Assembly (NCBI GenBank): GCA_950022495.1
Contig: CATLLJ010000002.1
Coordinates: 1-64,000, forward strand
DNA length: 64,000 nt
Direction: 5' to 3'
Source of the DNA: an uncultured bacterium
GTDB lineage: Bacteria; Cyanobacteriota; Vampirovibrionia; Gastranaerophilales; Gastranaerophilaceae
Position 1 is the first letter of the stretch, and each line of letters starts with the position of its first letter. Below, piece after piece: positions 46,083 to 47,747 of the stretch. The notes below the pieces were generated by a model that saw nothing but the letters and a program-made list of their open reading frames with translations, ran no database searches and had not been told where the DNA came from. The translations under genes were made by a program, and so were the position numbers.

Positions 46083-46167
46083 AAATGATATATTATACTT
46101 TTTTCGCATATAACTTTCAGCATTATAGTAAATAATAAATATGGTAACTATAACGAAAGGAGTTAAT

Positions 46168-46470
46168 ATGAAACACGAAGAAGATAAAAAAACAATGAAA
46201 GAAAAAATGGATGAAACTGCGGAAAAGGCAAAAACAAAAGCCCATGAAGTAAAAGAAGACATCAAAAAAGGTGCGGAAAAAGCACGAGATAAAGCTCATG
46301 AAGTTAAAGGCCGTGTAGCAGAAAAAATTGACGAAACAAAAGAAAACATCAAAGAAGGTGCAGAAAAAATAAAAGAAAAAGCTCATGAAACCAAAGGACG
46401 AATTGCAGAGAAAATAGACGAAAAGAAACAAGAAATGAAAGATAAAAAAGAAGAAAAGAAGAAAGCATAA
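46168..46470 (+). CDS. LEA-like charged repeat protein
   Basis: 100 residues from ATG 46168, with AAAGGAG 8 nt upstream. The sequence is almost only Lys, Glu, Ala, Asp and Thr in 11-residue-like repeats (for example KAHEVKEDIKKGAEKARDKAHEVKGRVAEKIDETKENIKEG, then the same with KIKEKAHETK). This is the pattern of group 3 LEA and some CsbD/YtxH-like stress proteins: an amphipathic helix that is unfolded in solution. Protection of proteins or membranes under stress is a family-based inference. Confidence 0.75.
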   Translation: MKHEEDKKTMKEKMDETAEKAKTKAHEVKEDIKKGAEKARDKAHEVKGRVAEKIDETKENIKEGAEKIKEKAHETKGRIAEKIDEKKQEMKDKKEEKKKA

Positions 46471-47120: not shown

Positions 47121-47157
47121 AAAAAAAGATTGCGACTTTGGTCGCTAATCTTTTTTT
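47121..47157 (-). terminator. tRNA-Leu terminator
   Basis: On the minus strand AGATTAGCGAC and GTCGCAATCT pair with one bulged base around a short loop, followed by seven T. It begins right after the tRNA 3' end. Confidence 0.8.
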
Positions 47158-47241
47158 GGTGTCGAAGAAGGGGATCGAACCCTCAAGGCATAAACCACAC
47201 GAACCTGAATCGTGCGCGTCTACCAATTCCGCCACTTCGAC
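47157..47241 (-). tRNA. tRNA-Leu (CAG)
   Basis: 85 nt including an encoded CCA (47157-47159 with discriminator A at 47160). The acceptor strands are GTCGAAG and CTTCGAC, the D-arm is GCGGAATTGGTAGACGC, and the anticodon stem CACGA/TCGTG holds loop TTCAGGT (anticodon CAG). A long variable arm GTTTATGCCTT and T-arm GAGGGTTCGATCCCCTT follow. All are typical of a class II leucine tRNA. The first 11 nt recur at each junction of the tandem array immediately upstream. Confidence 0.95.
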
Positions 47242-47666
47242 AAGGATTATATTGGAACTCGCGTCTCGTGGCGGATGTTCTCTCTTCAGAGAACCCTCTC
47301 GGAAAATGATACTTAATCATTTTCCTGCGGCAGAGTGCCACTTCGACAAGGATTATATTGGAACTCGCGTCTCGTGGCGGATGTTCTCTCTTCAGAGAAC
47401 CCTCTCGGAAAATGATACTTAATCATTTTCCTGCGGCAGAGTGCCACTTCGACAAGGATTATATTGGAACTCGCGTCTCGTGGCGGATGTTCTCTCTTCA
47501 GAGAACCCTCTCGGAAAATGATACTTAATCATTTTCCTGCGGCAGAGTGCCACTTCGACAAGGATTATTATTGGTACTCGCGTCTTGTGGCGGATGTTGT
47601 TTCCAACAACCCTCTCCTCTAATGTGACATTTAGTCACATTCTCGTCGGCAGAGTGCCACTTCGAC
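47242..47666 (-). repeat. four-unit structured tandem array at the 5' end of tRNA-Leu
   Basis: Three identical 106-bp units (47242-47347, 47348-47453, 47454-47559) are followed by a divergent 107-bp unit (47560-47666). Each unit ends in GCCACTTCGAC, the complement of the first 11 nt of the tRNA. Read on the tRNA strand, each unit has GTGGC pairing with GCCAC near its ends and CTCT pairing with AGAG. It also has a hairpin GGAAAATGAT/ATCATTTTCC and a hairpin GTTCTCT/AGAGAAC. In unit four the two hairpins are AATGTGAC/GTCACATT and GTTGTT/AACAAC, so pairing is kept while sequence changes. No protein is encoded. If the tRNA promoter is the TATAAT-like sequence near 47686-47691, the array lies in the pre-tRNA leader. 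Confidence 0.85.
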
Positions 47667-47747
47667 ATTCGACATCTATACATATATTATATTACAAACA
47701 CAAAATATATCCCCACTGTTAAACTTTATTCATGATAAAATTATTAT
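47667..47747 (-). promoter_or_regulatory. likely promoter region of array and tRNA-Leu
   Basis: On the minus strand AATATAATATATG lies about 25 nt before the first copy of the tRNA 5' end. No convincing -35 box was found. The segment is shared with the start of the divergent lipoprotein gene. Confidence 0.3.
47733..47741 (+). promoter_or_regulatory. extended -10 promoter 6 nt before GTG
   Basis: TGATAAAAT, TATTAT, GTG at 47748. No Shine-Dalgarno sequence. Confidence 0.45.

Follow-up and report, generated by a model that had tools for sequence, protein, structure and literature searches.

A clade-wide family of REP-like DNA hairpins in tandem units at the 5′ ends of Gastranaerophilales tRNA genes

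Why should an intact tRNA gene be preceded by several copies of its own first nucleotides, each joined to a sequence that can fold? The question is raised by a tRNA-Leu(CAG) gene in the first 64,000 nucleotides of contig CATLLJ010000002.1 (hereafter, the window), from an uncultured member of the Gastranaerophilaceae. Upstream of this gene lie three identical 106-bp units and one 107-bp unit, each with its own copy of the first 11 nt of the tRNA, or 12 if base −1 is included (Table 1). The motif GCCACTTCGACA, whose reverse complement TGTCGAAGTGGC is base −1 plus nt 1–11 of tRNA-Leu(CAG), occurs at 47231, 47337, 47443, 47549 and 47656, giving spacings of 106, 106, 106 and 107, and Tandem Repeats Finder reports a period of 106, 3.5 copies and a score of 713; the array is therefore built as the original prediction described it. 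Read in the tRNA direction, a unit consists of TGTCGAAGTGGC, a hairpin core, a second hairpin (hp2), ATCC, GCCAC-GA-GAC and a spacer. The core of the window units reads ACTCTGCCG-CA-GGAAAATGAT-TAAGT-ATCATTTTCC-GAGAG, and GCCAC-GA-GAC is able to pair back to the tRNA start. A computed fold agrees with the predicted pairing: one unit plus the next tRNA start reaches −42.9 kcal/mol compared with −27.6 ± 3.4 kcal/mol for shuffles (z = −4.5). Reading frames that cross the array (e.g., 47138–47422) run through tRNA and repeats and show no signs of coding. A separate 87-bp tandem repeat, at 46251–46442 of the window, lies within a small lysine/glutamate-rich ORF (46141–46470, plus strand) whose product resembles LEA-like helical repeat proteins.

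Table 1. Features of the tRNA-Leu(CAG) array (window coordinates) and sites of modular repeats and of the spacer motif in other contigs and genomes
Feature	Location	Strand	Basis
tRNA-Leu(CAG), complete; nt 1–11 repeated in each unit	47157-47241	-	ARAGORN; Rfam RF00005, 50.9 bits
Unit 1, 106 bp, nearest tRNA; ends with copy of tRNA base −1 to nt 11 (47337-47348)	47243-47348	-	sequence
Unit 2, 106 bp, identical to unit 1	47349-47454	-	sequence
Unit 3, 106 bp, identical to unit 1	47455-47560	-	sequence
Unit 4, 107 bp, different hairpin arms, flanking stretches unchanged	47561-47667	-	sequence
Unit 1 hairpin core, ACTCTGCCG...GAGAG	47296-47336	-	pattern match
Unit 2 hairpin core	47402-47442	-	pattern match
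Unit 3 hairpin core	47508-47548	-	pattern match
Unit 4 hairpin core, GACTAAATGTC apical type	47612-47655	-	pattern match
Unit 1 second hairpin (hp2), GTTCTCT-GAAG-AGAGAAC	47277-47294	-	sequence, fold, hp2 survey
Unit 1 stretch complementary to tRNA start (GCCAC-GA-GAC), putative eroded inverted copy	47263-47272	-	sequence, complementarity test
Spacer, unit 1 to tRNA	47243-47262	-	sequence
TATAAT, probable −10 box of native tRNA promoter, upstream of array	47686-47691	-	sequence, empty-site alignment
Modular GC-rich repeat sites	G146 and G102 (L215-L244); CALUQY and CALVBO contigs (L062, L103, L117, L123, L131, L138)		
Spacer-motif sites at core-free tRNAs	G000:C7:40042, C12:42750, C1:25545 (L254, L255, L257)		

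Is the array a local peculiarity? The conserved part of the units is the core, ACTCTGCCG-stem-loop-stem-GAGAG, of about 38–47 nt. Its pattern is present in 351 of 383 sampled Gastranaerophilales genomes at 1–87 copies each, with almost no matches to the reversed-pattern control, and a DNA search found matches in 54 of 98 relatives, so that the copies elsewhere on which the original prediction depended do exist. Since the core family is present across the order, the array in the window is not a local satellite. Among the matches listed in a scan of named genomes, most of those with an organism name came from Candidatus Gastranaerophilales or Melainabacteria; many others came from gut bacteria, and a few were chance matches. 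Outside the order, within the same phylum, the exact pattern gave 1–2 matches in a few cyanobacteria, most without a comparable hairpin, and with matches this sporadic we rejected a wider spread. The cores are dispersed, intergenic and on both strands, and reach 87 copies in a genome, yet the window's genome has 6 matches in total (0 for the reversed-pattern control), all in two tRNA-Leu arrays. The second array consists of two 128-bp units before tRNA-Leu(GAG), which carry the first nucleotides of tRNA-Leu(GAG) rather than those of tRNA-Leu(CAG). Unit sizes are 106–128 bp, and the units encode nothing. The core pattern also matches on 28 viral contigs, which form no part of the evidence used here.

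Of the 234 units in the first locus set, 137 are followed by a tRNA on the same strand at a distance of at most 700 nt, 40 have no such tRNA and 57 run into a contig end, which leaves array copy numbers uncertain. Although so many contig ends might point to a chance satellite or an assembly artefact, this explanation is refuted by the homologues, which come from independent genomes, adjoin more than ten isoacceptors, include a divergent unit inside one array and covary; we give it practically no weight.

Cores lie upstream of Leu (five anticodons), Pro, Met, Val and Lys tRNAs (90 distinct tRNA-proximal units) and, in a later survey, of Thr tRNAs. The family would be one of order-wide palindromic repeats tied to tRNA 5′ ends, and its units are not specific to tRNA-Leu(CAG), since other tRNAs and non-tRNA loci carry the core. 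The 90 units nearly always carry the start of their own tRNA, either nt 1–11 or nt 1–18/19, and the core follows C11 (of TGGC, nt 8–11) or sits exactly between G18 and G19 of the D-loop. The latter point, before GTAG (from nt 19), is found in Pro, Thr and one Lys unit. Usually the units also hold tRNA nt ∼18–26 or an inverted copy of nt 1–12; in Met, Val, Lys, Pro, Thr and Leu(UAA/UAG) units, nt ∼18–26 are as a rule 3′ of the core. Older units and leader copies aside, the duplicated stretch often starts 0–3 nt from the tRNA 5′ end, a possible boundary that is suggestive only, since decay outside the tRNA part would look alike. Arrays contain 1–4 units, and at tRNA genes the core is found only where a complete tRNA follows. 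At four loci (L122, L143, L062 and L117) two cores with different apical types lie back to back or nested, which suggests that cores may insert into cores.

How do arrays come and go? Within one genus, several tRNA-Leu(CAG) genes are without an array, and empty loci are about as numerous as filled ones. Two genomes of closely similar promoter region and identical tRNA differ in that one, G022 (L286), has two extra units exactly between promoter region and tRNA that are absent in the other, G026 (L291). At L294 (G044), the promoter stretch TTTGTAATATAAT and the tRNA are as in the window and the array is absent; here the stretch holding TATAAT directly precedes the tRNA. Comparison of empty and filled sites indicates that arrays are gained or lost cleanly and come to lie downstream of the native promoter-like stretch, from which we infer co-transcription of array and tRNA. 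The units behave like a small element, as the original prediction allowed: they sit at a tRNA 5′ end, the tRNA itself is complete, and tRNA-Leu(CAG) loci of relatives occur both with and without them. Two further loci (L307 and L312) hold fossil units, in which tail and spacer are kept before tRNA-Leu(CAG) and a recognisable core near the tRNA is lost.

Clean empty sites, tandem arrays and a tRNA-start direct repeat on both sides could also be produced if the units were cassettes placed by a site-specific recombinase, with the tRNA 5′ end as attachment site, in the manner of islands at tRNA 3′ ends or of integron cassettes. However, the repeated stretch changes with every isotype and has two alternative ends, nt 11 and nt 18/19, unlike one attachment site, and the units (106–128 bp) contain no genes, unlike integron cassettes, making this a very improbable account. 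Genomic islands at tRNA genes likewise leave a complete tRNA, but they usually insert in the 3′ part of the tRNA and encode an integrase, whereas the core units lie at the 5′ end, are about 95 bp, have no gene and use many isotypes.

If the units are inserted DNA, why are their stems so well paired? The stem changes with retained pairing noticed in unit 4 are visible in the sequence, and they recur among homologues: in 30 Leu-type units, 96.6% of the proposed pairs are standard and 77 double-sided changes are found, compared with 24.1 ± 3.7 for shuffles and 3–11 for slid structures. Such covariation, which exceeds all shuffles, would fit a functional structured RNA, either a leader that carries the tRNA start, is co-transcribed and controls tRNA processing or level, or a released small RNA. 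A three-way-junction-like structure, a CTCT/AGAG stem that is invariant across the 30 Leu-type units, a basal stem matched to the unit's own isotype, a conserved spacer motif and the position between promoter-like stretch and tRNA are all consistent with such a role. However, selection for RNA on the transcribed strand should make G-U far commoner than A-C. The core stems contain 1541 Watson-Crick, 8 G-T and 7 A-C pairs and the hp2 stems 283, 1 and 0, together 1,824, 9 and 7 (1,840 positions); since the stem search scored G-T and A-C alike, both counts are lowered and their ratio is unaffected. The acceptor and T stems of tRNAs at the same loci, which served as control, contain 760 Watson-Crick, 56 G-T and 6 A-C pairs. 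Unlike these tRNAs, the two hairpins covary almost without G-U pairs and show no excess of G-U over A-C. In the basal stem, T-G pairs are present (8 of 30 at one position), and the wobble asymmetry is uninformative there (G-T at 35 of 467 possible sites, A-C at 13 of 183). Given the shortage of G-U in the two hairpins, and since empty tRNA-Leu(CAG) loci are so common, copies occur outside tRNA loci and Rfam yields no match, we consider a functional RNA an unlikely explanation of the units, although the isotype-matched basal stem and the spacer motif, above all, leave some room for a regulatory or processed RNA.

The shortage of G-U in core and hp2 stems is better explained by upkeep of palindromes at the DNA level. 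Perfect stems can arise by template switching without passing through G-U, as published work describes (PMC8794818), and the pair counts favour this process over RNA selection as the one that may keep these stems perfect. Where the original prediction left selection on folded RNA and on single-stranded DNA as alternatives, the first has lost ground for lack of a G-U excess and the second fits better. In this family one can examine, in nature, whether perfect DNA hairpins originate and persist through template switching or through RNA selection, and the case cautions against taking compensatory changes by themselves as proof of a functional RNA.

In several hp2 hairpins the right arm repeats the preceding tRNA stretch in inverted form, as in GGTAGC-GCA-GCTACC (Met) and GGTAGAC-GAA-GTCTACC (Leu(UAA)), a pattern that fold-back copying would be expected to leave. 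GAA and GCA loops closed by C-G, which form very stable DNA mini-hairpins, are frequent in hp2. The tails were compared with tRNA starts in 82 units, which are not independent: duplex energy is −12.1 kcal/mol with the start of the unit's own tRNA, −9.6 with starts of other isotypes and −8.4 for shuffled tails. The match to the own isotype is strong in Leu and Met and weak in Pro(UGG) and Val, and a plain sequence comparison, in which the tails of 22 of the 82 units go beyond 5% of shuffles when set against the inverted start, gives a weaker signal than duplex energy. Judged from these matches, the tails can be read firmly as inverted copies for Leu and Met only.

We put the chance at about even that the array consists of miniature palindromic DNA repeats, REP-like in kind, that inserted at tRNA starts and have their stems kept by template switching, presumably with no function for the host. 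This explanation is supported by the order-wide family, the own-tRNA starts, the empty sites, the non-tRNA copies, the wobble-poor stems and the inverted tRNA copies. It is weakened by the isotype-matched tail and conserved spacer motif, which debris need not show, by the weakness of the inverted copy in Pro(UGG) and Val, by some T-G pairs in the basal stem and because no transposition event or enzyme was observed.

How might such a repeat enter a tRNA gene and leave it whole? The spreading module would be the ∼38–47-nt hairpin, settling in a tRNA D-loop or in other intergenic repeats. One possibility is that replication stalls at a core that enters or extrudes in the D-loop, and that the nascent strand then turns back on itself, makes an inverted copy of the tRNA start and returns to restart at the tRNA, with the only survivors being events that restore the tRNA. 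The order seen at tRNA genes is promoter, tRNA nt 1–11 or 1–18/19, core, D-arm remnant and/or fold-back (inverted) copy of the tRNA start, spacer and complete tRNA. The direct repeats would allow slippage to add or remove units, the stems would stay perfect through template switching from one hairpin arm to the other, and transcription of the array would begin at the native promoter, with the array then removed as a 5′ leader, presumably by RNase P. More tentatively still, and with the odds against it, the family may be a new class of gene-less mobile DNA hairpins that preferentially enter the tRNA D-loop, re-create the tRNA 5′ end in the same event by fold-back copying and multiply as tandem arrays in the pre-tRNA leader. 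If so, single-copy essential tRNA genes of several isotypes are open to colonisation. The core family appears to be a small DNA element of a kind not yet described, which invades essential genes and leaves them intact, and it illustrates how an element with no genes of its own can lodge harmlessly in a gene that the cell needs.

What draws the core to tRNA genes? In core-rich genomes it is also part of other modular repeats between genes, of which a single genome can have both filled and empty versions, for example filled GGTACAC-[core]-GTAGC-GAGTGGCGCC and empty GGTACAC-GGAGTGC-GAGTGGCGCC. The tetramer after GAGAG is most often GTAG (41 of 178 distinct sites, 23%), and since tRNA D-loops carry a conserved GGTAG, this sequence may explain the attraction. 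Large modular GC-rich intergenic repeats are also seen in which hairpin modules, the core included, replace or interrupt one another.

GTAG as the commonest right flank, and the exact insertions before it in Pro, Thr and one Lys unit, would also be expected of a REP-type element moved in trans by a RAYT (Y1/HUH) transposase that acts on single-stranded hairpins, with CTAC, the complement of GTAG, as target, as in IS200/IS605. RAYT-like Y1_Tnp genes are present in 121 of 367 genomes of the order, and in 5 of 28 fetched loci a core lies within a few hundred nucleotides of one. However, there is no Y1_Tnp protein in the window's genome and no RAYT in several core-rich genomes such as G102, G119, G204 and G321, the RAYT-like genes are directly flanked by hairpins other than the core (e.g., GTCGGTTGGGCATACCTGCCCAACA), and GTAG sits 3′ of the hairpin in the tRNA direction. 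By eye, Y1_Tnp presence shows no clear link to core number in Gastranaerophilales genomes, and the enzyme search, which covered Y1_Tnp proteins, identified no mobilising enzyme. RAYT is not supported as the core's cognate partner, and mobilisation of this kind appears improbable, though less so than placement by a recombinase. The RAYT-like Y1 transposase genes of Gastranaerophilales have REP-type hairpins of their own, GTCGGTTGGGCATACCTGCCCAACA, GTAGGTTGGGGTTTCTACCCCAACA and GTAGGGTGCAATTTATTGCACC (L245–L253, L319–L332).

The palindromic repeats described here can be compared with several known systems. Like GTAG REPs and REPINs with their RAYTs (PMC3733652; PMC3116915), they are short intergenic palindromes in many copies, have GTAG beside the hairpin at many sites and differ in loops and stems between subfamilies. 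In GTAG REPs, the GTAG tag marks one end of the palindrome in the majority of copies, and in most families in over 90% of them (PMC3733652), whereas in the core family GTAG is part of the flank and occurs at just 23% of sites. Further differences are that RAYT genes of the order carry other hairpins, that the window's genome has 0 RAYT genes, that G-T pairs, often present in GTAG REPs, are almost lacking, and that head-to-tail arrays lie at tRNA starts. The core family acts like a miniature mobile palindrome but departs from GTAG REPs in the share of sites with GTAG, in RAYT presence and in the hairpins that flank RAYT genes, while its many dispersed intergenic copies agree with them. These REP-like DNA hairpins, spread through the clade, show an uncommon preference for tRNA D-loops and a form of insertion in which the tRNA is left whole. 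The rtT repeats of E. coli tyrT (Rfam RF00391) are tandem units beside a tRNA gene, each with a piece of that tRNA. However, rtT repeats lie downstream and involve the 3′ end of one tRNA, whereas core units lie upstream, involve the 5′ ends of many isotypes and share a hairpin core; Rfam gave no RF00391 match at the array. Hairpin elements of mitochondrial genomes, e.g., the repetitive hairpin-forming elements of sponges, are gene-less small palindromes that spread through intergenic space (PMC2800124). The core is likened to them by this description, and differs in its bacterial chromosome, preferred tRNA D-loop site and remade tRNA start. Among Rfam families and ribozymes, only tRNA matched at the array, with chance-level matches in a relaxed search, and we found no description of such elements in open-access papers; the original statement that no described family fits agrees with the Rfam result.

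Finally, we note that a conserved 3′ spacer motif, TTGAAAATTGAATA, is present in 61 of 105 loci and also precedes core-free tRNAs in the window's genome, where 2 of 3 exact matches directly precede a tRNA. It is not a genome-wide repeat, with no enrichment at one mismatch (55 sites compared with 60 for the reversed control), and may be a general tRNA leader signal of the clade. In the same genome, TTGAAAATTRAATA or a one-mismatch form immediately precedes tRNA-Tyr and tRNA-Leu(UAA), both core-free, and lies a short distance ahead of tRNA-Gly.
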